Positions 6,878 to 22,105 of a stretch of DNA of 31,018 nt are shown piece by piece (the first letter of the stretch is position 1; the number at the start of each line of letters is the position of its first letter). A program made the position numbers and the translations under genes. This DNA is from a virus, in the IMG/VR virus record IMGVR_UViG_3300021389_000096, positions 1 through 31,018 of that record. One strand, 5' to 3'. A model generated the notes under the pieces. It saw nothing but the letters and a program-made list of their open reading frames with translations. It had not been told where the DNA came from and did no database searches.

Positions 6878-7795
6878 TTATTTATTCTCTACGAAATCTT
6901 TGAATGAGAGTAGTTTTCGAGAAGAAATAATTTCAAAGAAAGTTTTTGAATCTGGACCGCTGAGACGATTATAATCAAATTTAACCTTTGAAAATATTGG
7001 TCGATAGTGTAGAGTTCTTTCTTTAGGAATGATTAGAAGTTGACCCGTTGTTACCATATCACCTTTATTAACATTACCAACTCGAAGTGGATTCATGAAT
7101 TGATCTTTATCTGGACACTTGGCCAATAAATCCATTAATTCTCCAGGTTCAGTGATTTCTGATGAAATAGCCTTTGTGGCATACTCTAATCTCTTTTCGC
7201 TACTCTTTCTGGATTTGACTAGTCTTGGATCAGTAGGATTTTCATGATAGCCAAGCTGCGGCATCATAATTCCATGATTAGTTCTACAAGAACATTCATC
7301 TTCATTAGGCGAAAGATGCTTTACTTTGTATTGATATTCACGAGGATTATCTTTAGTAGCATCATCTTTTTTTATGGTGAAACCGCCTTCAAGGATATAA
7401 CAATCTTTTTCATTAAAGACATATGTAGCTCCGGCAAGATTGTGTTGAATTAATACGTTTAAAGCTTCTTTAGGCGTCTTCATTAAAAGAGCTTTACGAA
7501 TAGCTCTTCCATCTGGAGAATAATAGCCATATTGATCACGCTTATTTTTACGTTTAAGAATAATCTTATCGCCTTCTTTCTCATCACTTTTTACAGAGAA
7601 TGATGCGGATATAATTGAAACACCATATTCATTTACACCTTCGCTCCATCGACTTAATTTATCATCGATATATAGACGCTGAACATCATGACGATTGCTC
7701 TGAACAATCTCTACCTCTGCCTTATAGTTTCGATCACGATTTTTTGCTCCAACCCAACCATGATCTTTGAGATATTTTATTGCGACTACACACAT
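6878..7795 (-). CDS. Ntn-hydrolase, C45/choloylglycine-hydrolase-like
   Basis: 305 aa starting MCVVAIKYLKDHGWVGAKNR, so removal of Met would expose Cys2 as an N-terminal nucleophile, as in choloylglycine hydrolase and acyl-CoA:6-APA acyltransferase (C45) families; the GAKNRDRNY segment matches the conserved Arg/Asp region after the nucleophile. SRWSEGVNEYGVSIISASF continues the N-terminal Ntn beta-sheet. Homologues occur in T4-like phages, with substrate unknown (amide bonds of peptides, acyl-homoserine lactones or bile-salt-like conjugates are possibilities). The C-terminus ends KLLSFKDFVENK, which resembles the FKxY/F...E segments at the starts of the putative virion proteins. Confidence 0.75.
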   Translation of the reverse strand: MCVVAIKYLKDHGWVGAKNRDRNYKAEVEIVQSNRHDVQRLYIDDKLSRWSEGVNEYGVSIISASFSVKSDEKEGDKIILKRKNKRDQYGYYSPDGRAIRKALLMKTPKEALNVLIQHNLAGATYVFNEKDCYILEGGFTIKKDDATKDNPREYQYKVKHLSPNEDECSCRTNHGIMMPQLGYHENPTDPRLVKSRKSSEKRLEYATKAISSEITEPGELMDLLAKCPDKDQFMNPLRVGNVNKGDMVTTGQLLIIPKERTLHYRPIFSKVKFDYNRLSGPDSKTFFEIISSRKLLSFKDFVENK

Positions 7796-7819
7796 ACATA
7801 TATTTATATAATATTACCG

Positions 7820-7984
7820 CTATTCTTCATATTCATCTTCATCAATTATCTCTTCTTCACCGTAGTTCTCAGAACCACAGAATGGACAAAAAGATGGAAC
7901 AAGATCTTCATCAACGTCTTGTTCTCTATATCGAACAGTGTATTGTGATGTACAGTGAGGGCAATATTGTGTTTCGTTTATCAT
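7820..7984 (-). CDS. 54-aa zinc-ribbon protein
   Basis: The frame encodes MINETQYCPHCTSQYTVRYR, then an acidic stretch and SFCPFCGSENYG, ending in an acidic tail (EEEIIDEDEYEE). Two CPxC knuckles about 22 residues apart make a typical zinc ribbon. Its ATG overlaps the NrdA stop as ATGA. Small zinc ribbons like this occur in phages as adaptors for polymerase or nuclease complexes; the role here is unknown. The double-knuckle pattern makes the gene secure despite its size. Confidence 0.8.
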   Translation of the reverse strand: MINETQYCPHCTSQYTVRYREQDVDEDLVPSFCPFCGSENYGEEEIIDEDEYEE

Positions 7985-9627
7985 GCTTCGCAGGATGAGC
8001 AGTTAAGTAGGTTACGAGATAGTTCTTGAGATGGATTAGTGCCGCGATGATAATATAAAGTCTTAACACCTTGTTCCCAAGCAAAGATAAGAAGTTGATT
8101 TACTTCTCTTGCTGGAGTTTTTGGGTGAATCATCAAATTAATACTTTGAGCTTGATCTATAAAATTTTGTCGAATAGCTGCTTGAGTAATAATTTCTCTT
8201 TGTGAGATTTCACCAAACGTCTTAAAAACATCTTTTTCTTCATCTGTAAGAAAATCTAAATGTTGAACAGAGCCACCATTCGTGAGAATTGATTTCCATG
8301 TTGGACGATCATTCTTATTATGCTTTATAAGAAGTATTTCAAGATGTGGATTTTTATATGTGAATTTACCTTTTGCCAAATCTTTTACAAAGTAATTTGA
8401 ATTTAAAGGCTCAACACTTGGAGATACTTGTCCAAGAATGAATGAACTTGATGTAGTGGGTGCAATCGCCATAGTGGTGACATTACGCAAACCATATCCT
8501 TTAAGCAATTCTGGCTCTCCGTATTTCTCTGCCATGATTTGAGATGCTTGATGTGATTCCTTTTTTATATATGAGAATATATCAGCATTTAATTGTTTTG
8601 CCTCAAAACTTTCAAAGGCAATCATTTTTGACTGTAGATAAGAATGCCATCCAAGTACACCAATACCAAGTGCTCTTTGTCTTTCAGCAAACTTTCGTGG
8701 TGCCTCCATATAAGGGATATTTTCAGTCTTACTAATGAACTCAGACATGACAGCATCAAGAAAGAATGTTAACACCTCGACAGCATCTGTTCCTTTCCAT
8801 TGATCATAATGAAGAAGATTCATTGACGATAGATTGCACACGAATGACTCATCATTACTTGATGAAAGAGCGATTTCAGAACAAAGATTAGATGCATAAA
8901 TCTTCTTACCTTTATCTTGATAAACCTGCGGTGCATTCTTATTCATTGTGTCAGAGAAGAACAAATATGGATAACCAGATTCAAATCTCTTTTGAATCAC
9001 CTTACCCCATATCTTGCGCTTATCTTTATCACCATCAACCATTGACTTCATCCATTCGTCAGATATTGTAACACCAATAGATAGATTTTGAATTGGGTTG
9101 CCATCGCTACGAATCTGTAAGAATTCTAGAATATCTTTATGCTCAATGGGCATATAAGCCGCGAATGAACCTCTTCGAACGTTAGACTGAGAAACTACAT
9201 TTGTGACTGTCTCAAATAATTCCATAAAGTGAACTGGACCATTTGATTTACCACCAGCAGAAATTTCTGCTCCTCTCTCACGAAGATCTCCAAAATACGC
9301 AGAAGTTCCTCCACCCATCTTAGTCATCATTCCGACTTCAGCTTGCTTTGTTAAGATAGCTTCTAATGTATCATCAACATAAGAGCCGAAGCATGAAATT
9401 GGCAATCCTCTTTTTAGACCATAGTTGGCCCAAATAGGTGACGATAAAGAATACCATCCATAGGACATATACTCTTCAAATTTCTCTGCAAAGCCTTTTA
9501 TCTTTAATTTTTTTTGTGCAGCTTTAGCAATCTCAGTGATTCGCTCTTCTGGTGATTGATCACTTGTTAGGTAACCGCGTTCAAGAAACTTGCGCGAATC
9601 TTCATTTAACCAATAGTATTTTTCCAT
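7981..9627 (-). CDS. nrdA: Ribonucleotide reductase class Ia large subunit
   Basis: 548 aa. Active-site residues are all present: C79 (GLPISCFGSY, radical-transfer-linked thiol), N247/C249/E251 in SNLCSEIALSS, C264 (FVCNLSS), PTTSSSFILG, the radical-path YYHRG near the C-terminus, and the C-terminal redox pair C543/C546 (NCSSCEA). It reduces ribonucleoside diphosphates with NrdB. It is much shorter than E. coli NrdA (761 aa): the N-terminal ATP-cone is absent, so overall activity regulation by dATP is probably lost, which suits a phage that needs high dNTP output. Starts 15 bases after nrdB. Confidence 0.96.
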   Translation of the reverse strand: MEKYYWLNEDSRKFLERGYLTSDQSPEERITEIAKAAQKKLKIKGFAEKFEEYMSYGWYSLSSPIWANYGLKRGLPISCFGSYVDDTLEAILTKQAEVGMMTKMGGGTSAYFGDLRERGAEISAGGKSNGPVHFMELFETVTNVVSQSNVRRGSFAAYMPIEHKDILEFLQIRSDGNPIQNLSIGVTISDEWMKSMVDGDKDKRKIWGKVIQKRFESGYPYLFFSDTMNKNAPQVYQDKGKKIYASNLCSEIALSSSNDESFVCNLSSMNLLHYDQWKGTDAVEVLTFFLDAVMSEFISKTENIPYMEAPRKFAERQRALGIGVLGWHSYLQSKMIAFESFEAKQLNADIFSYIKKESHQASQIMAEKYGEPELLKGYGLRNVTTMAIAPTTSSSFILGQVSPSVEPLNSNYFVKDLAKGKFTYKNPHLEILLIKHNKNDRPTWKSILTNGGSVQHLDFLTDEEKDVFKTFGEISQREIITQAAIRQNFIDQAQSINLMIHPKTPAREVNQLLIFAWEQGVKTLYYHRGTNPSQELSRNLLNCSSCEA

Positions 9628-12185: not shown

Positions 12186-12193
12186 TATTTATA
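12186..12193 (-). promoter_or_regulatory. T4-late-type promoter (TATAAATA)
   Basis: A perfect TATAAATA on the minus strand in the 53-base gap before the ATG at 12165. T4 late genes use this -10 without a -35. The leader would be about 15 bases. Confidence 0.5.
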
Positions 12194-12210: not shown

Positions 12211-12236
12211 TTTGATATTCACGTTTGATATTCACG
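12211..12236. repeat. 13-bp tandem duplication at a stop codon
   Basis: TTTGATATTCACG occurs twice in a row (12211-12223, 12224-12236) at the 3' end of the 287-aa gene. Thirteen is not a multiple of three, so the duplication shifts the frame and creates the present TGA; with one copy the protein would end REYQMED rather than REYQT. Confidence 0.85.
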
Positions 12237-13082
12237 ATCAATCTCGTCAAGAATATATAAAATCTCTTCAATTGCTTTTTCCATTTTACGAAACTCAGGA
12301 TCGTAATTACCTTCGAGTTTTTTATTAACGGCTTTATTTAAGTTAGAACCTCTTTTTAAAGATGCTGTAAGTCTAGTTACAGCATCATAAGCGGCTTTAG
12401 CGCCTTGGCTTGATTCTGGAAAACCTCTTGCTTCTTCAAGTTCGACATCTTCTTTAAACGGTGACACTGATTTAGTAACATACGCAATTCCTTGAGCCAA
12501 TTGCTTAATCTCTTCTTTAGGTATTTGAATGAATTTCATACCGTAATTAATCTGTAGGCCTGCTCCTTTGCCTTTACCCATTGCAAATTGAGTGAGGGTA
12601 ATTTTCCCCTTCTTGTAAAGTTCAGTAGCTTCTTCAAGATCAACTGATTCAAATGCCATCATAGCATCTTTAACATTTTTAAAATATTCAACTCCCGTTG
12701 ATAAACCACCATCGAACTTGATCTTACCTTTTTCGATAGATACATCAACTACTGCACCTTGGCCAAAATCTGCTGTATTTCCTTCAACATCAGCACCTGC
12801 CTTTTTAGCAGCGGCTAAAACCTTTTTGATATCGGCCGTCGATGCTTCTTCAAGGTCGACAGACTCCTTCTTAATTGCTTTACTAATCGCTTGACGTTTT
12901 TTATGAAGATATTCATCAGAGCTATCTGTGTCTCCATCATTATCAATATCTTTATCTTCACGATCATCAAAGTCACCCTTTACAGCTTTAGGATCTACTT
13001 TATCTAGCTTAGCAGCTTCGTTATACATTATAGAACTAGCTGCTTTAGCCAATTCGCGAGTTAAGTCGTCATTTAAATTCAT
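12219..13082 (-). CDS. Modular polyprotein-like protein with EF-hand-type loop
   Basis: 287 aa. N-terminal 79 residues carry a calcium-loop pattern, DIDNDGDTDSSDEYLHKKRQ, with D45, D47, D49, G50, D53 and D56 in EF-hand/dockerin register. Three linkers follow: SVDLEEA (A80), SVDLEEA (A152) and DVELEEA (A218), each fitting L-x-E before A. They separate blocks of 72, 66 and 70 residues. The block at 80-151 is a near-copy (58 of 72 identical) of a block in the 902-aa protein. It is likely a virion-associated, protease-processed protein; block functions are unknown. A TATAAATA-like GATAAATA lies upstream at 13108-13115. Confidence 0.75.
   Translation of the reverse strand: MNLNDDLTRELAKAASSIMYNEAAKLDKVDPKAVKGDFDDREDKDIDNDGDTDSSDEYLHKKRQAISKAIKKESVDLEEASTADIKKVLAAAKKAGADVEGNTADFGQGAVVDVSIEKGKIKFDGGLSTGVEYFKNVKDAMMAFESVDLEEATELYKKGKITLTQFAMGKGKGAGLQINYGMKFIQIPKEEIKQLAQGIAYVTKSVSPFKEDVELEEARGFPESSQGAKAAYDAVTRLTASLKRGSNLNKAVNKKLEGNYDPEFRKMEKAIEEILYILDEIDREYQT
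12630..12845 (-). repeat. Duplicated 72-codon block, copy in 287-aa gene
   Basis: Encodes a 72-residue block starting ASTADIKKVLAAAKKAGADV. Partner: 15225-15440 in the 902-aa gene, same length, 58 of 72 residues identical by hand count, including a shared ESVDLEE end. Shows exchange of blocks between neighbouring genes. Confidence 0.9.
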
Positions 13083-13442: not shown

Positions 13443-16151
13443 TTATGCTTTTAGTTTAGCAAGTTTAGAATTAAGCATTTTTAAATATCCTTCCTTACCA
13501 CCATATTGGCTGAATCTTCGAGGATCAGGATTCTTAATCATCTTTTCAAGTGATTCAATATCCTGTTGTTTATCGCTTTTAGCTTCAAGCTGCACAAATG
13601 CATCTTTACCAAATCTATTACCAATAATTGTTTTTGCCTTTTTAATTTGTGCAGATGTTGCAGGAGAATCTTGTTTATAGATGTTAAATAGTTCATGCCT
13701 AAATTTATCAGCTGCGCTAGAATCGATTTTAAATAGCATTTGACGTAGTTCGCGAACTGTAGCATTTTTTGCTTCTTCAAGATCGGGTGATTCTGATTTT
13801 TGTTTCTGTCGCTTCATTTCTCTCTTAATAATGGATAGCTCATAAGGTGTAAGCTTTCCATCTTTAAAGTTCGAACTCTTTTTGAGCATTTTCTCATAAA
13901 AAGCTAAGCTCTTACCTTCATAAGTTGACATTATATTATCAATGAAGTTTAGTCTTTCTTTAGCTTTAATACCTTTCATTGCACCGTCCGCAGCGTCGGC
14001 TTCATCAAGTTGAGTTGACTCTTCCATTACCTTAGATTTTGCAGACTTAAATTCTGCAGTATTAATAAAGGAAATTCTCTTACCACTTCTTTTGACCTTT
14101 AACTTCATTGAAGTAAATAACTTTTCTGCTTGTTTCGCCTCAGCGTCATTAACAAATGTTATGGTCTCACTTTCTCTATTGACCTTTGGTTTATAAAATG
14201 TAGCTTCTTCAAGATCAGTTGATTCTTTAACAGCTCTACCTCTTAATGCTTTGATCACTTTTCTGATATTTGCAGGCCCAATAACAGACATTAGCGCCAA
14301 ATTTATATCTTTCATCATATACCTATCATCAGCAGTGCTACCTTTGAACAGTTTCCTTACTTTTATGACGTTGGCAGTTCCAATACCAGCAGACCTTAAT
14401 GCCATACTAATGTCTTTCATCATATACTTATCTGTAGGAGCTTCTTCAAGCTCAGTTGATTCTTTCATATTGGCAACTTCTGGTTGCTTTTTAATGTATC
14501 TTATAATGTATAGTTCATTTGGATAAATGATTTCGTCTCCTTTTACCATATCATCCCAATTATATCCACTAAACTTATTCTTAAGTTTCTTGATAAGTCT
14601 TTGAGCCGCAGCGGGTGTGTGAGCTTTAAGTCTATTATTCGCTTCTTCAAGATCAGTTGATTCACCTAACACTGCATCTACACTACCACTTGGAACTAAT
14701 GAAGGATCACCTTTCATTTGTTTAATTCCTTTTTTAATAGCTTCAGCTGAGTTACGTGCTTTAACATCAACTGTTTGATCCTTAAAGAGTTTACCAGCTT
14801 TCTTAGTGATAGTAACTGTCCACCATTTGACTGCTTCTTCAAGATCAGTTGATTCCTTAACTGATTTAATTCTAACGTATTTCTTTTGGATTGCATTGCG
14901 TTTCCAGTCATTCTTATTAAAGTTTTTGAAGTTTTTAACTTCATCATACTCGTCATAAGTCAATATATTTGTCCTTTCAAGATCAGTTAATGCTTCTTCA
15001 AGATCATTTGCTTCTCCCATCAACTTGGCTTTATTATCCTGATACCATGCGGCGTCAGCTGGTTCAGCATTTCCGCCAATCTTAGCAGCAGCCATTTTAG
15101 CACCTAGCCATTTTGTCCAAGACTTTGACGGGCTTAGTTGCTTTCCTGTTTTCTTGTCATAGATGATCCACTTGGCACTAGATTCGAACATCTTATACGC
15201 TTCTTTTGTGACTTGGCATTTAACTTCTTCAAGATCAACCGATTCAAATGCCATTATAGCATCCTTAGCATTATTAAAATATTCAACTCCCGTTGACATA
15301 CCTCCATCGAACTTGATCTTACCCTTTTCGATAGATACACCAATTAGTGATCCTTCACCAAAGTCGATTTTATTACCTTTAATATCAGCACCTGCCTTTT
15401 TAGCAGCAGCTAAAACCTTTTTGATATCGGCCATTGATGCTTCATGAAGTTCAGTTTCTTTACTAACTTTACGAATAACTTTAGCTGATTCAGTAAGATT
15501 AAATGCCTTATAAGCTTCGCGTATCTTCGACGGTGAAGTAGTGATATCGATGTTAGAAGAATCAACAAAAGCTTCAATAAGTGATTGATTGTTTTCATTG
15601 ATCACTAACGATACCATCTTTTCGAGTCGAAGAGTATCGAGATCTTTTGCCTTTACTGATTCTTTTATTTCTTCTCCTTCAGGACGACGACCGCTCTTTT
15701 TAGGATAAATAATTTTAAGAGGATTATTTGTAATGAAGATAAGCTGATCATCTGAATCTAAACCAGCAGCAGTTGCAGCCTTTGTTGTTCCTAATAGCTT
15801 ATTTTTAATACCAAGCTTAATTTCTCCGGGACGAACACTTGAAATTAGTTTCTTTAAATCGTATTTCTTAATAAGTTTGGCTTGCTTGTCTTTGTCTCCA
15901 TCTGTTCTAGACCATGCTTGTTCGAGACCTTTAAATGGAACTACCTTTGCTTCATCAAGGTTAGATTCTTTTTTTAAGCGTTTCATCCACTCACCTTTAA
16001 GTGCCTTTAATATAGGCTGTGCTGATGATCTACCAACGTTTTTAAAAATATCTAAAAGATCTTTTAACTCTGACGTTGATAGTTTTTCGTAATCTGCAGT
16101 TGTTGCTTCAGATAGATATTTTTCGATAATTTCTTGTTCCTTTATATTCAT
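13443..16151 (-). CDS. 902-aa modular polyprotein with repeated protease-like sites
   Basis: Starts MNIKEQEIIEKYLSEA, like the T4 internal-protein capsid-targeting peptide (MKTYQEFIAEA, cleaved before the last A). Sites of the (L/I)-x-E|A type follow with A at residues 16, 68, 238, 387, 440, 504, 571, 650, 718 and 794, plus one degenerate site LEE-V at 310. Blocks between them are 52, 170, 72, 77, 53, 64, 67, 79, 68, 76 and 109 residues. Each is basic, Lys-rich and mixed alpha/beta, with short helices (for example ARNSAEAIKKGIKQM, LIKKLKNKF). Block 571-649 holds an internal duplication of YMMKDI...AL. A TATAAATA promoter sits just upstream. Proposed: late, packaged, cleaved into about 11 small basic proteins. 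No block has a recognised function. Confidence 0.85.
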   Translation of the reverse strand: MNIKEQEIIEKYLSEATTADYEKLSTSELKDLLDIFKNVGRSSAQPILKALKGEWMKRLKKESNLDEAKVVPFKGLEQAWSRTDGDKDKQAKLIKKYDLKKLISSVRPGEIKLGIKNKLLGTTKAATAAGLDSDDQLIFITNNPLKIIYPKKSGRRPEGEEIKESVKAKDLDTLRLEKMVSLVINENNQSLIEAFVDSSNIDITTSPSKIREAYKAFNLTESAKVIRKVSKETELHEASMADIKKVLAAAKKAGADIKGNKIDFGEGSLIGVSIEKGKIKFDGGMSTGVEYFNNAKDAIMAFESVDLEEVKCQVTKEAYKMFESSAKWIIYDKKTGKQLSPSKSWTKWLGAKMAAAKIGGNAEPADAAWYQDNKAKLMGEANDLEEALTDLERTNILTYDEYDEVKNFKNFNKNDWKRNAIQKKYVRIKSVKESTDLEEAVKWWTVTITKKAGKLFKDQTVDVKARNSAEAIKKGIKQMKGDPSLVPSGSVDAVLGESTDLEEANNRLKAHTPAAAQRLIKKLKNKFSGYNWDDMVKGDEIIYPNELYIIRYIKKQPEVANMKESTELEEAPTDKYMMKDISMALRSAGIGTANVIKVRKLFKGSTADDRYMMKDINLALMSVIGPANIRKVIKALRGRAVKESTDLEEATFYKPKVNRESETITFVNDAEAKQAEKLFTSMKLKVKRSGKRISFINTAEFKSAKSKVMEESTQLDEADAADGAMKGIKAKERLNFIDNIMSTYEGKSLAFYEKMLKKSSNFKDGKLTPYELSIIKREMKRQKQKSESPDLEEAKNATVRELRQMLFKIDSSAADKFRHELFNIYKQDSPATSAQIKKAKTIIGNRFGKDAFVQLEAKSDKQQDIESLEKMIKNPDPRRFSQYGGKEGYLKMLNSKLAKLKA
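14228..14441 (-). repeat. Internal duplication inside one polyprotein block
   Basis: Two units of about 37 codons, DKYMMKDISMALRSAGIG... and DRYMMKDINLALMSVIG..., each followed by ANxxKV and a basic helix, lie back to back in residues 571-642 of the 902-aa protein with no LEEA linker between them. Confidence 0.8.
15225..15440 (-). repeat. Duplicated 72-codon block, copy in 902-aa gene
   Basis: Encodes a block starting ASMADIKKVLAAAKKAGADI; partner of 12630-12845. Its closing linker has changed from LEEA to LEEV, so if the linkers are cleavage sites this one may be lost. Confidence 0.9.
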
Positions 16152-16183: not shown

Positions 16184-16191
16184 TATTTATA
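16184..16191 (-). promoter_or_regulatory. T4-late-type promoter (TATAAATA)
   Basis: Perfect TATAAATA on the minus strand in the 63-base gap upstream of the 902-aa polyprotein (ATG at 16151), leaving a leader of about 25 bases. It supports late expression. Confidence 0.6.
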
Positions 16192-16214: not shown

Positions 16215-18647
16215 TTATTTTCCAAATTCGTGACCAGCCACGCGTTGCATTTGTTTGCTATATTCTTTAAAATCTGGTTTTTCTTTATAAAGTTTAATTG
16301 AAATGTTGGGTTTTTCTTTTCCCATTATACGCCATTTATAACCTTTTTCAAGGTGCTCTGGATCTGTAGTTTTAACTACTCTTCTTTTATATCCTTGCTC
16401 CCATGTTTCTCCCTTATACTTACCTTCTCCTTCTTGTATATTTTGGCCAGGAGTATTCTTCTTAAATATTTTTGTTGTCTCAGGAGTTCCGTAATCTAAA
16501 GCTTCAGTTGGTTCATGTGTCCAACCTTTAGCTGCTAGTCTTTCGTGATCTTCAGGTTTTTCAGCCTTTTCTTTTTCTCCAGTTTTTGGATCATACATCC
16601 AATGCGGTTCGAAATCCTTTGACTCTTCAATTGATTCTTTCTTACCTTTATGCTGAGCCCAAAGATCTTTATCAGCGGTTGTTCTTGTTTTGCCTCCAGT
16701 GGCAAATGAATTAATTCGAGCAAATCCCCACTGGGTTGGAGTAGTTCCAGGACGATGACCTGTTCTCCATGCAGCTACACCGCGATCAAATACTTTCTTC
16801 AAAATAGAATATGAGATGCCAGTCTTTTCAGCCTTATTGCGAATACCTTCTTCGGTACTTTCACTTATAGGTATTTTTTTCCATCCAGCTTTCGTACGAA
16901 GTGTATTCAATTGTTGAATAATTTTCTTTTGATTAGATGAACCGGGAGTAGATGCTAATGCCTTTTTTAGAAGGCTAAGCATTTCAACATCCGTTTCATT
17001 ACCTTCACCAAGTTGTTGCTTAATCCAATCTTTCGCAATCTTATTTCTTGGAGTTGCATCAGCAAACTTACTCATCTTCTTATAGGCATCAGTAGTTGCT
17101 TTTTGCCAATTTGCTCCTTCAGAATTATCTACAATTATAAAATTATCTTTAAAGAATGATTGGAATTTACCGATATTCTTTTGAACTTCATCCCACATAA
17201 TCTTCACTTGTTTCGGACCAAGTGTTCGATTTCTTTGAGAATCTCTTTTAACTGCTGTATCAAAATCAGTATTAACAAGAATCATAGCTACATCATAGCC
17301 AATTTCTTTTAATTTAGAAGCTTGCTTTTTAATCTTTTCATAATCTTTACCTGTTCCATCAATCACTAGGCCAAGACGACCTTGAATATAGAGGTCCATT
17401 TGTTTAGATGTTAAAGCTTTTGCCTTTGCGCGAACTTCTTGTCCTTTCGGTGAGAAGATAAATTCTGGCTCCATTACACCACCAGCTTTTTCAATTGCCT
17501 TTTCAAAAGCAGGATCAGAGTTTACCAATTTAAATCCGAGGGCACTTAAACCAGTCTTACCAACTGTAAATGATTTACCCGAACCTGGGCCACCTGCGAG
17601 GAATATCGCCTTAAAGATTGCAGGATCATCTACGCCTTCTTGAAATTCTTCACCGAACATATCCTTGAATTTCTTAGTATACTTCGAAGGTTTTGTTTCA
17701 GTTGTAGCATCTCCTGGGGCTGGTTTATAAGCTGCTGGATTATCATCATCCATTTTAGCTTGTTTATTAAATTGCGCTTGTCGTTTATCTTTAGTCGACT
17801 TTGACAATCCAGCATGATACTTTGGATTTACCGATTCTTCAAAATATTCTTCCAAATCATTAATGAAATACTTAGTACCAATAGAACTTGTAACATAATT
17901 TGTATAGCGTTCAACTATAGTAAAATTTTGATTTGTTTTTTGGCATTGAACTCTATCACCAATATTAAAGATTTCTCCTGCAACGAATTTCTCTCGTTTT
18001 TCAGAAATAGTTGGAAGCTGAATATGCTTTCGGAAACTATTCATTTCTTTTAATCCCATTCTTTTACGAAGAAGATTAAATACTGATAGTTTATCTCCGA
18101 ATGATTTTGGAAGACCATTAGCAAATGACTGAAAGTCTCCTGATTTTGCTGCTGTTCTCATTTTAGAAGCAGACATTCCTGAAACATCATCTGCATCTGG
18201 ATCACGATCACCGGCAGACTTGAATGTAATACTATCAAAATCGTAAAAGCCGTGGCGTGCCTTTATACCATTATACTTGAGAAGTAAAGTTTTAAAGTCT
18301 TTGATACGATCAGCGCCAATTACCATTGTTATATCGCTATAACCTTGATTGTAAAGTGACACAACAATATCAAAAATATTAACGATATTCGTATCAAAGA
18401 TGATGTTCCGAGCATATTTCGGAAACATCTTACGCATGATTCCTACTTTTTCTTTATATTGAAGAGGATCTTTTTCGGGTTTATTAGATTGCGATACGAA
18501 AATTTTATAGTCTCCGCCTTTAGCAGCATCAACTATATTCGAAATAAGCTTTTCGTGTCCAATAGTAGGCGGATTAAATCTACCAAACGTAAACGTTACC
18601 GATTTGGACTTCTCTTCGTTAAACTGTTTAAACCCCTTCACCAACAT
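16215..18647 (-). CDS. 810-aa multi-domain protein: nucleotidyltransferase + P-loop kinase + DUF5824-like
   Basis: N-terminus MLVKGFKQFNEEKS resembles a packaging peptide. Residues 17-195: cytidylyltransferase/NMNAT-like domain, FTFGRFNPPTIGHEKL (TxGH) and SASKMR. About 276-299: KYHAGLSKSTKDKRQ basic segment. 347-540: zeta-toxin-like P-loop kinase, Walker A GGPGSGKS at 352-359, D430 in VIDGTGKD, and R-rich lid TAVKRDSQRNR. 600-650: segment DRGVAAWRTGHRPGTTPTQW, as in DUF5824 proteins. 683-712: WMYDPKTG...AAKGWTHEP. Linkers fitting (L/I)-x-E|G/S: LGE|G (548/549), IEE|S (675/676), IQE|G (739/740). Possibly a packaged enzyme polyprotein acting on nucleotides, NAD-type cofactors or host targets. 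Domain calls are good; processing is inferred. Confidence 0.8.
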   Translation of the reverse strand: MLVKGFKQFNEEKSKSVTFTFGRFNPPTIGHEKLISNIVDAAKGGDYKIFVSQSNKPEKDPLQYKEKVGIMRKMFPKYARNIIFDTNIVNIFDIVVSLYNQGYSDITMVIGADRIKDFKTLLLKYNGIKARHGFYDFDSITFKSAGDRDPDADDVSGMSASKMRTAAKSGDFQSFANGLPKSFGDKLSVFNLLRKRMGLKEMNSFRKHIQLPTISEKREKFVAGEIFNIGDRVQCQKTNQNFTIVERYTNYVTSSIGTKYFINDLEEYFEESVNPKYHAGLSKSTKDKRQAQFNKQAKMDDDNPAAYKPAPGDATTETKPSKYTKKFKDMFGEEFQEGVDDPAIFKAIFLAGGPGSGKSFTVGKTGLSALGFKLVNSDPAFEKAIEKAGGVMEPEFIFSPKGQEVRAKAKALTSKQMDLYIQGRLGLVIDGTGKDYEKIKKQASKLKEIGYDVAMILVNTDFDTAVKRDSQRNRTLGPKQVKIMWDEVQKNIGKFQSFFKDNFIIVDNSEGANWQKATTDAYKKMSKFADATPRNKIAKDWIKQQLGEGNETDVEMLSLLKKALASTPGSSNQKKIIQQLNTLRTKAGWKKIPISESTEEGIRNKAEKTGISYSILKKVFDRGVAAWRTGHRPGTTPTQWGFARINSFATGGKTRTTADKDLWAQHKGKKESIEESKDFEPHWMYDPKTGEKEKAEKPEDHERLAAKGWTHEPTEALDYGTPETTKIFKKNTPGQNIQEGEGKYKGETWEQGYKRRVVKTTDPEHLEKGYKWRIMGKEKPNISIKLYKEKPDFKEYSKQMQRVAGHEFGK

Positions 18648-18853: not shown

Positions 18854-20086
18854 TCATTTTTGCCATCCTTTAATTACATCTGGTGAAAAATTGTTCATTG
18901 AAAATTCTAATCTATCTATCAATTTAACGGCACCAGAAGAAGTCTTATCAATGGCAACGAATCCTTCTGAACCTGTAACCTTAAAACCATTCTTAGTACG
19001 TACAAATGTATCAAGTTGTTTTACTTTATCTAGTTTATTTATAATAAGAAGTTTTGCGTCTATAATAGCATTCTGAAGCTCAAATATAAGTTCAAGGTTC
19101 TTTTTATTATCATTCGAAAAGAATGCCATTAATTCCTGTTCTTTCGCATCAATTGCTTCTTTACCTTTTTCGGATTTACGTTTTTGTCTTTCTTTTTCGA
19201 ATCTATTTTTAAACCATACAATAAGATCACTTACGTGTTTTGTTGGTGATGCGATTCGTTCTCCTTTACGAACAAGAGTATTATTAAACGTTTCAATTTG
19301 CCGAGCAAGATCAATATTAGATTCTAATTGTCTCAATGTTGTTCCGGCAATCTTTTGAAAAATTCTACCAGCTTGAGATAAAGCATCATTTACTTGCTTA
19401 GTATCGACTGCAGATAAACTTGCCTTACCTGTCACATCTCTATATTGAGCATCTTGATACCAAACCGAAGATTTTTGTTTTAACTCTTTTAGATTGACAC
19501 CATAAGATGCTTTCATTGAAGGAAAATCTTTGCCCTTATATGTTGTGTGCCATACTACTCCAAGATTTGCTTTAGCAATTTGTTTACCTAAATCTGATCT
19601 AACAGGAATAGCATATACAATTGTGTTTGGCTGAAATGTATAATAAGCTTCGCCATCAATCGTTTCTTTTTTTACATCTCCCTTTGTAAACATGATATCA
19701 CCTTGAATAACATTTTTGATACCCATGTCCTTCAATTCGTTGAATGCAACGGATAGCTTATTCGCAAGATCTCCCGATGTATCAGCACGAACATCAGCTT
19801 CTGATTTATAAACCTTTGGGTCTTTATTGAAGATACCCTTTTTCGCAACAAAGAATTGACCGTCATTTGGGTCGATACCAGCAAATACGGCAGGTGCTCC
19901 ATCCCATTTAACAGTAACATCATAATTCTCATTACTGTTACCAGCCAACATATCTCTCATTGCTCTCAAAGCAAAGATGGCTTCTCGGGCGCCCTTGACA
20001 CCGCCATAGATCACACGATCCTCGATGTGGGTCATATGAGTATTCTTGCCAGTGGCTTCTGATAGATATGTTTTGAAAGATAGCAT
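18854..20086 (-). CDS. Ligase-like nucleotidyltransferase with capsid-targeting-like N-terminus
   Basis: 410 aa from ATG 20086; the 23-residue upstream extension overlaps the previous gene and is rejected. It begins MLSFKTYLSEATG, closely like T4 internal protein III (MKTYQEFIAEA), with L-S-E|A at residues 8-11. Ligase-type motifs: motif I KWDGAP (K60, D62, G63), GDIMFTKGD as a motif-III-like strand, EGFVAID (374-380) as motif IV, and a Lys in AVKLIDR (K388) as motif V. These are the covalent nucleotidyltransferase motifs of DNA/RNA ligases and capping enzymes, though there is no OB-fold visible; a helical Lys-rich region (about 290-350) takes its place. A packaged, injected ligase-like enzyme is the inference. 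Confidence 0.7.
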   Translation of the reverse strand: MLSFKTYLSEATGKNTHMTHIEDRVIYGGVKGAREAIFALRAMRDMLAGNSNENYDVTVKWDGAPAVFAGIDPNDGQFFVAKKGIFNKDPKVYKSEADVRADTSGDLANKLSVAFNELKDMGIKNVIQGDIMFTKGDVKKETIDGEAYYTFQPNTIVYAIPVRSDLGKQIAKANLGVVWHTTYKGKDFPSMKASYGVNLKELKQKSSVWYQDAQYRDVTGKASLSAVDTKQVNDALSQAGRIFQKIAGTTLRQLESNIDLARQIETFNNTLVRKGERIASPTKHVSDLIVWFKNRFEKERQKRKSEKGKEAIDAKEQELMAFFSNDNKKNLELIFELQNAIIDAKLLIINKLDKVKQLDTFVRTKNGFKVTGSEGFVAIDKTSSGAVKLIDRLEFSMNNFSPDVIKGWQK

Positions 20087-22097: not shown

Positions 22098-22105
22098 TAT
22101 TTATA
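22098..22105 (-). promoter_or_regulatory. T4-late-type promoter (TATAAATA)
   Basis: Perfect TATAAATA on the minus strand between the metallopeptidase stop and the ATG at 22076/22067. It is flanked by an 8-bp inverted repeat AATGTAAT (22080-22087) / ATTACATT (22110-22117), which could form a hairpin or end the upstream replication transcript. Confidence 0.55.

Follow-up and report, generated by a model that had tools for sequence, protein, structure and literature searches.

Prohead-protease substrates, internal proteins, and multiple cuts within scaffold proteins or propeptides are already known from phages. The T4 prohead protease gp21 cleaves after L/I-X-E (PMC9026906). Among its substrates, the scaffold proteins gp22 and gp67 are each divided into several pieces, most of which leave the head, and the internal protein (IP) IPI blocks a restriction system (PMC9026906). 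The polyvalent proteins of phages and conjugative elements are virion-delivered, multidomain, and fast-recombining and have been compared by their describers with the polyproteins of RNA viruses (Iyer et al. 2017, PMC5512222). Here, we describe a gene at positions 13443 to 16151 (minus strand) of a viral DNA fragment of 31,018 nucleotides (IMG/VR record IMGVR_UViG_3300021389_000096; hereafter, the window), which encodes a 902-amino-acid (aa) chain of small blocks joined by motifs of the gp21 type. The window carries genes for UvsX, a DnaB-like helicase, ribonucleotide reductase, a DUF6267 protein, and a cytidylyltransferase, and the nearest isolates are C48C1, Melnitz, and HTVC008M; given this gene content and these isolates, we assign the 31-kb fragment to a marine T4-like phage.

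Our reading, to which we give a probability of roughly three in four, is that the chain consists of concatenated internal proteins of the T4 type, which a gp21-type protease cuts apart in the prohead and which are probably retained and then injected. A first-pass annotation of this DNA had proposed a packaged, prohead-cut chain of small proteins, and several indirect tests support that proposal: the conserved cut-site signature, the shuffling of units between relatives, a late promoter motif, a prohead protease on the contigs of relatives, IP-like leaders, cassettes within a prohead core gene, and virion homologues of the neighboring proteins. From these we infer cleavage, retention, injection, a recombination role of the joint DNA, and the functions of the cassettes. 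The same annotation knew of no described phage polyprotein of this shape. Our own search, which covered the open-access PMC literature, found no prohead-protease polyprotein of exchangeable cassettes, and a chain of shuffled cassettes appears to be undescribed there.

Leader, joints, and blocks of the 902-aa chain

The gene is a single open reading frame (ORF) with an ATG start on the minus strand, a strand that the first-pass annotation leaves unstated. A 15-aa leader, MNIKEQEIIEKYLSE (16107 to 16151, minus strand), resembles a capsid-targeting peptide and ends in YLSE|A16, where comparison with the leaders of relatives predicts a cut before A16. Further LxE|A motifs lie at residues 67/68, 237/238, 386/387, 439/440, 503/504, 570/571, 649/650, 717/718, and 793/794, and a variant joint, LEE|V, at 309/310; every site listed in the first-pass annotation is present. 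The chain has the [LI]-x-E|A/G/S cut-site form of gp21/S77 substrates, and most of its joints share the longer form ES[TV][DE]LEE|A. The protein contains 11 L.EA matches (0.56 expected), a number reached in 0 of 20,000 shuffles, and the fetched loci, with 1069 ORFs in all, contain 133 instances of the stricter joint form E[SA]x[DENQ]L[DE]E[AVG], compared to 0.15 in shuffles; shuffle tests such as these ignore the relatedness of the sequences. We rejected two other matches to the pattern, SLIE|A194 and KIRE|A213, as probably not being sites, because relatives do not keep L/I-x-E-A at these positions.

The sites divide the protein into 12 pieces, the leader and eleven blocks of 52, 170, 72, 77, 53, 64, 67, 79, 68, 76, and 109 aa. 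Nine of the eleven blocks are 52 to 79 residues long and most are Lys-rich, as had been noted before. The isoelectric point (pI) is 7.9 to 9.9 in nine blocks and 5.0 and 6.4 in the other two (whole chain, 9.4). Nine of the eleven predicted products, whose sizes range from 52 to 170 aa, therefore have the small, basic character of mature T4-type internal proteins. The leader also agrees with those of T4 internal proteins, being short, within their range of 10 to 19 aa, and ending in [LI]-x-E before A.

The first two sites are not shuffled between relatives. The first site reads YLSE|A in the 902-aa chain and TISE|A, FISE|A, YLDE|A, HIAE|A, or HLNE|A in relatives; forms of the second site are EIEE|A, ELEE|A, AIEE|A, PLEE|A, AIDE|A, and NLDE|A. 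In both, P3 is always L or I, P1 is E, and P1' is A, while P2 is free, which fits the specificity of gp21. The major capsid protein encoded by the related contig G012 has FGVLSE|A at the position of FGSFLTE|A in T4 gp23. Judged by these patterns, the joints look like protease sites and not merely like seams.

We modeled the chain with AlphaFold on a 25-row alignment from which misplaced fragment rows were excluded. The mean predicted local distance difference test score (pLDDT) was 64 and the predicted template modeling score was 0.26. The model shows confident small domains at about residues 440 to 497, 660 to 700, and 860 to 902 with no common core, and no continuous fold across the linkers, in line with the separate blocks drawn in the first-pass annotation. 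Nine of the 10 internal joints fall in segments with pLDDT <50, which make up 29% of residues; because regions outside the joints are also of low confidence, the model is only supportive. A Foldseek search of the model against the PDB and BFVD returned no match at E<=0.001. Pfam gave no match to the chain above cut-off, and PHROGs gave one weak match, to which no function is assigned there. The whole protein had no match among 50,697 phage records.

Exchange of cassettes between relatives

The most striking part of the case, which is absent from the first-pass annotation, is the shuffling of cassettes between relatives. We found 12 IMG/VR loci that encode relatives of the chain, most of which share its head and differ in their tails. 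Scans with single blocks reached further, finding the KWWTV block at 50 IMG/VR loci and the KIPSSN block at 23. Splitting about 50 multi-site ORFs at their joints yielded about 36 block families with at least two members, arranged in an order that varies between proteins; the count is approximate because single linkage partly merged families 1, 2, and 5 via a shared tail. When the joint motif was masked, 60% of the edges of matches with >=80% identity lay within 12 aa of a joint, compared to a mean of 11% and a maximum of 24% for rotated joints. Within the window itself, a 74% identical copy of block 238-309, ending in the same SVDLEE joint, is present in the neighboring 287-aa protein.

One pair of loci differs in whole cassettes within nearly identical surroundings. 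The flanks of the chain genes of L001 (6987 to 8690) and L004 (5832 to 7781) share 99.75% of positions in the 4 kb upstream and 99.4% in the 1 kb downstream, and the genes themselves are 99.86% identical over their first 698 nt and 100% over their last 155 nt. Between these ends, one of the two genes holds two additional cassettes and has a third exchanged, and the breaks fall at joints or directly beside them. Because whole in-frame cassettes differ between flanks that are >99% identical, the exchange appears to have been very recent. As far as sequence comparison goes, the blocks of the 902-aa chain are real evolutionary units.

The codons of the joints are unusually uniform (Leu as CTT in 89% vs 39%; Ser as TCA in 64% vs 30%), as would be expected if a common DNA seam moved together with each cassette. 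This uniformity raises the possibility that the motif persists only as a recombination seam, and that the chain is an uncut multidomain virion protein of the polyvalent type in which LEEA marks flexible linkers spread by recombination without proteolysis. The predicted disorder of the linkers would suit such a protein. We nevertheless consider it very unlikely: the unshuffled sites 1 and 2 keep [LI]-x-E-A while x varies and I and L exchange, which is unlike a neutral linker or a DNA seam; the first site directly follows the leader, which is also the point of cleavage in T4 internal proteins; and relatives encode the protease.

Individual blocks differ in how widely they recur (all coordinates on the minus strand). 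Block 1 (residues 16-67; 15951 to 16106) is conserved in the alignment of relatives and ends in [LI][DE]E|A, and block 2 (residues 68-237; 15441 to 15950) is a conserved 'KVVPFK' head domain belonging to block family 4, with 16 members. Block 3 (residues 238-309; 15225 to 15440) is the DIKKVLAAAKKAG cassette that is duplicated in the adjoining protein. Block 4 (residues 310-386; 14994 to 15224) lies downstream of the LEE|V joint and belongs to family 12, and block 5 (residues 387-439; 14835 to 14993) is present in L010 too. Block 6 (residues 440-503; 14643 to 14834) is the KWWTV cassette, found in many different proteins and modeled with a pLDDT of about 90; a scan of bacterial genomes with this block found no relative. 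Block 7 (residues 504-570; 14442 to 14642), the NNRLKAH cassette, belongs to family 7 and occurs in other orders in L002 and L005. Block 8 (residues 571-649; 14205 to 14441), also found in L010 and L011, contains an internally duplicated YMMKDI unit, DKYMMKDISMALRSAGI / DRYMMKDINLALMSVIG. We found no relative of block 9 (residues 650-717; 14001 to 14204; pLDDT 84 to 89 over most of it) and none over most of the length of block 10 (residues 718-793; 13773 to 14000). Block 11 (residues 794-902; 13446 to 13772; pLDDT 91 to 95 over residues 861-900) ends in the DIESLEKMIKNPDP cassette, which recurs in L157 behind MFTFLQYLKE|A. When ten cassette families were searched together in phage records, only one recurred, in Melnitz gene 20.

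Promoter, protease, core genes, and neighboring proteins

The sequence TATAAATA, the -10 element of T4-type late promoters, lies at 16184 to 16191 (minus strand), 32 nt ahead of the ATG of the 902-aa gene, which would fit late expression. Of 44 multi-site ORFs, 26 have the same element within the 60 nt that precede them, compared to 1% of random 60-mers. Its total in the window shows no excess (6 vs 4.6 expected), so it is informative only by its position upstream of genes. Further minus-strand copies at 7801-7808, 12186-12193, and 22098-22105 lie just upstream of gene starts at 7795, 12165, and 22076; these three additional TATAAATA-led minus-strand genes lie in a region otherwise full of replication genes.

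In the wider clade, four long contigs (105, 119, 59, and 34.7 kb) encode both joint-bearing proteins and an S77 prohead protease, and such a protease is also encoded by C48C1 and Melnitz, the two closest isolates. In G012 (L144), L061, L062, and L064, a protein with the same cassettes is encoded directly after the gp20 portal gene. Where the contig continues past this cassette core protein, it encodes a small core gene, the S77 protease (in G012, at L144:9277-9921), a T4_CASP scaffold, and Gp23, matching the T4 order 20-67-68-21-22-23. The gene into which the cassettes are fused in these contigs is thus a gp67-like core gene, placed between those for the portal and the prohead protease (L144:8164-9078, L061:5639-6553, L064:3153-4376, and in L062). 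The N-terminus of the G012-type protein resembles the adjacent small gene and the small genes at the same place in G007, G009, and Melnitz (z 3.5 to 12), and two of these small core genes match PHROG 1064, a 'prohead' family that contains T4 gp67 (E 8e-7 and 4e-5). When the G012 core leader and T4 gp67 are compared directly, their similarity is weak and not significant, and the link runs through the intermediates that match PHROG 1064. In the G012 core gene, the full KIPSSN cassette is also immediately preceded by a partial copy of itself. The gp67-like protein of G009 is extended by a block that follows ESVTE|A. Core proteins of this kind, with the added block at the C-terminus, are encoded at L147 (10806-11162, minus strand) and L148 (10545-10901, minus strand) and make up a second extended lineage.

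The fusion of cassettes to a gp67-like core gene in one lineage, together with the precedent of T4 gp22 and gp67, could mean that the 902-aa chain is itself prohead core or scaffold filler, cut into pieces that mostly exit, and that the cassettes act as spacers and do nothing in the cell infected next. We think this unlikely. T4 gp67 and gp22 are acidic (pI 4.1 and 4.6), whereas the chain has a pI of 9.4 and mature T4 internal proteins 9.0 to 9.7; because most blocks are basic, like mature internal proteins and unlike gp22 and gp67, retained cargo seems the better description than disposable scaffold. Spacers would also have no need of several confidently modeled folds, of homologous cassettes at high identity across unrelated carriers, or of single cassettes behind IP-like leaders. 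The 902-aa gene itself sits in the replication/NMNAT locus, not between portal and protease.

A typical gene start at this locus is M[KIL][ST]F..Y[LI].E|A, which has the form of the T4 IPII/IPIII start MKTYQEFIAE|A. A looser form of the pattern begins 104 of 2769 ORFs, compared to 0.5 in shuffles. Separate leader-bearing genes hold the C-terminal cassette of the 902-aa chain (L157) and several cassettes of its 810-aa neighbor. Genes combining a 10-aa leader of this kind with one or a few cassettes lie at L157:4821-5378, L030:134-1102, L128:7686-7916, and L005:7486-7938.

Two of the neighboring genes of the chain have homologues among virion proteins; all the genes described below are on the minus strand. 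The equivalent locus of phage S-SCSM1, ORF89-93, encodes five consecutive proteins annotated as virion proteins, and the virion proteins of that phage were determined by mass spectrometry of virions (PMC9602691). The 810-aa protein (16215 to 18647), which combines a cytidylyltransferase/NMNAT domain, a zeta-toxin-like kinase, DUF5824, and C-terminal cassettes, is 39% identical to S-SCSM1 ORF91, which starts MKSFLQFLKE|A. S-CREM2 virions have also been reported to contain a cytidylyltransferase, with the authors' caution that carry-over is possible (PMC10665884). The 287-aa protein (12219 to 13082) is a second cassette protein, with LEE|A after residues 79, 151, and 217, and its N-terminal part is 53% identical over 32 aa to S-SCSM1 ORF92. 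Its N-terminal stretch DREDKDIDNDGDTDSSDEYLHKKRQAISKA resembles a calcium loop of the EF-hand type and is found again in Melnitz, C48C1, and S-SCSM1 ORF92. A DUF6267 protein (18854 to 20086) starts MLSFKTYLSE|A, like T4 IPII and IPIII. Farther away, an NrdA-like protein (7981-9627) is nearest to those of Phosso and Atu_ph07, rhizobial/agrobacterial jumbo phages (63 to 64% identity), and not to those of other marine T4-like phages.

Several observations weigh against the proposal of prohead-cut internal proteins. We did not find a prohead protease gene on the window's own 31-kb fragment or on fifteen further fragments, 18 to 49 kb long, from the same clade. The length of the fifteen fragments means that their lack of the gene says little, and the linkage to the protease holds at the level of the clade; the presence of a protease in the window's own phage is deduced from relatives. 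No contig was found with both a MNIKEQE-type chain and the protease, so that the linkage runs via other joint-bearing proteins. The closest isolates, C48C1 and Melnitz, lack a chain of such length. Cleavage of the 902-aa protein and its presence in virions are likewise deduced, and its blocks could be scaffold filler that leaves the head. The joint at residue 310 has V at P1', the joint at residue 237 falls in a confidently modeled region, no relative was found for two of the blocks, not all cassettes are basic (some are acidic or neutral), and Pfam, PHROGs, and Foldseek recognized no fold or function for any cassette.

The lack of a prohead protease gene in the window would also suit a different enzyme, a host or phage cytoplasmic protease that cuts the motif after infection or during lysis to release products that are not head proteins. 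This strikes us as barely credible, given that the motif has the same form as the clade's own Gp23 site and the sites of T4 internal proteins, that the gene follows a late promoter motif, and that cassettes occur inside a prohead-core gene.

Proposed mechanism and comparison with known systems

In the mechanism that we propose, a chain of small, mostly basic internal head proteins would be expressed late in infection by a marine T4-like phage. The N-terminal leader, and perhaps the whole chain, would take the polyprotein into the prohead core, where a gp21-type (S77) protease would cut after each [LI]-x-E, usually before Ala, to give the 15-aa leader and about eleven mature proteins of 52 to 170 aa. 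The mature pieces would probably stay with the packaged DNA and enter the cell with it, like T4 IPI to IPIII. The conserved DNA of the joints (GAATCN...CTTGAAGAAGC) may let phages swap, insert, and lose whole cassettes in frame, so that each strain would have its own cassette set. The cassettes are plausibly early host-takeover or counter-defense proteins; by analogy with T4 IPI, their turnover at the level of strains suggests dealings with host defenses.

A broader version of this proposal is a pool of plug-in cargo, in which small injected proteins with a common protease site and common joint DNA are distributed over polyproteins, packaged enzymes, and the prohead core, each joint serves as both cleavage site and recombination seam, and every strain delivers its own cocktail of effectors. 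We regard the odds for and against this version as even.

Injected internal proteins are among the first phage products that a host meets, and they are hard to recognize outside a few model phages. The leader and the ES.DLEE|A joints together form a sequence signature that marks the boundaries of dozens of candidate injected proteins in marine phages that have not been cultured, and the size of each candidate is low enough for expression and testing. If the proposal is true, a prohead-protease polyprotein with strain-level swapping of cassettes would link head maturation with the rapid evolution of counter-defense. The locus also suggests a natural route by which several proteins could be loaded into a phage head from one gene.

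Among described systems, the NMNAT/cytidylyltransferase locus of S-SCSM1 (ORF89-93) is equivalent to that of the window, with ORF91 and ORF92 matching the 810-aa and 287-aa proteins. It differs from the window in having no long LxE|A chain, and ORF92 shares only the EF-hand-like stretch. Polyvalent proteins differ from the chain in being large and multi-enzyme, with processing thought to occur via an embedded peptidase domain. The chain has no known domain, and thus no recognized effector or MPTase domain; it would depend on a separate prohead protease, and its cassettes are mostly 50 to 80 aa, with a cut site at each joint. The head proteins of phiKZ and SPN3US resemble the chain in that one prohead protease makes several cuts per precursor (PMC10052503, PMC9026906). 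In those phages, however, multiple cuts strip a propeptide from one mature protein and do not release a series of products.

The T4 core proteins gp22, gp67, and gp68 are also cut several times after L/I-x-E, and in G012 and its relatives it is a gp67-like gene, located where T4 has gp67/68, that carries the fused cassettes. Unlike the chain, gp22 and gp67 are acidic scaffold whose pieces mostly exit, and they are not chains of exchangeable folded units. The closest likeness is to T4 IPI, IPII, and IPIII. We found no sequence homology between the cassettes and these proteins, which share with the chain a leader of about 10 to 19 aa ending in L/I-x-E|A, small basic mature products, and variability between phages; the neighbor and single-cassette genes of the locus start with the same kind of 10-residue leader. 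Each T4 internal protein, however, has its own gene and its own leader, whereas the chain places about eleven behind one leader with shared cut sites. Because its eleven blocks lie in one ORF, and not as one mature protein per gene, the chain would work like an internal protein but is not simply one.

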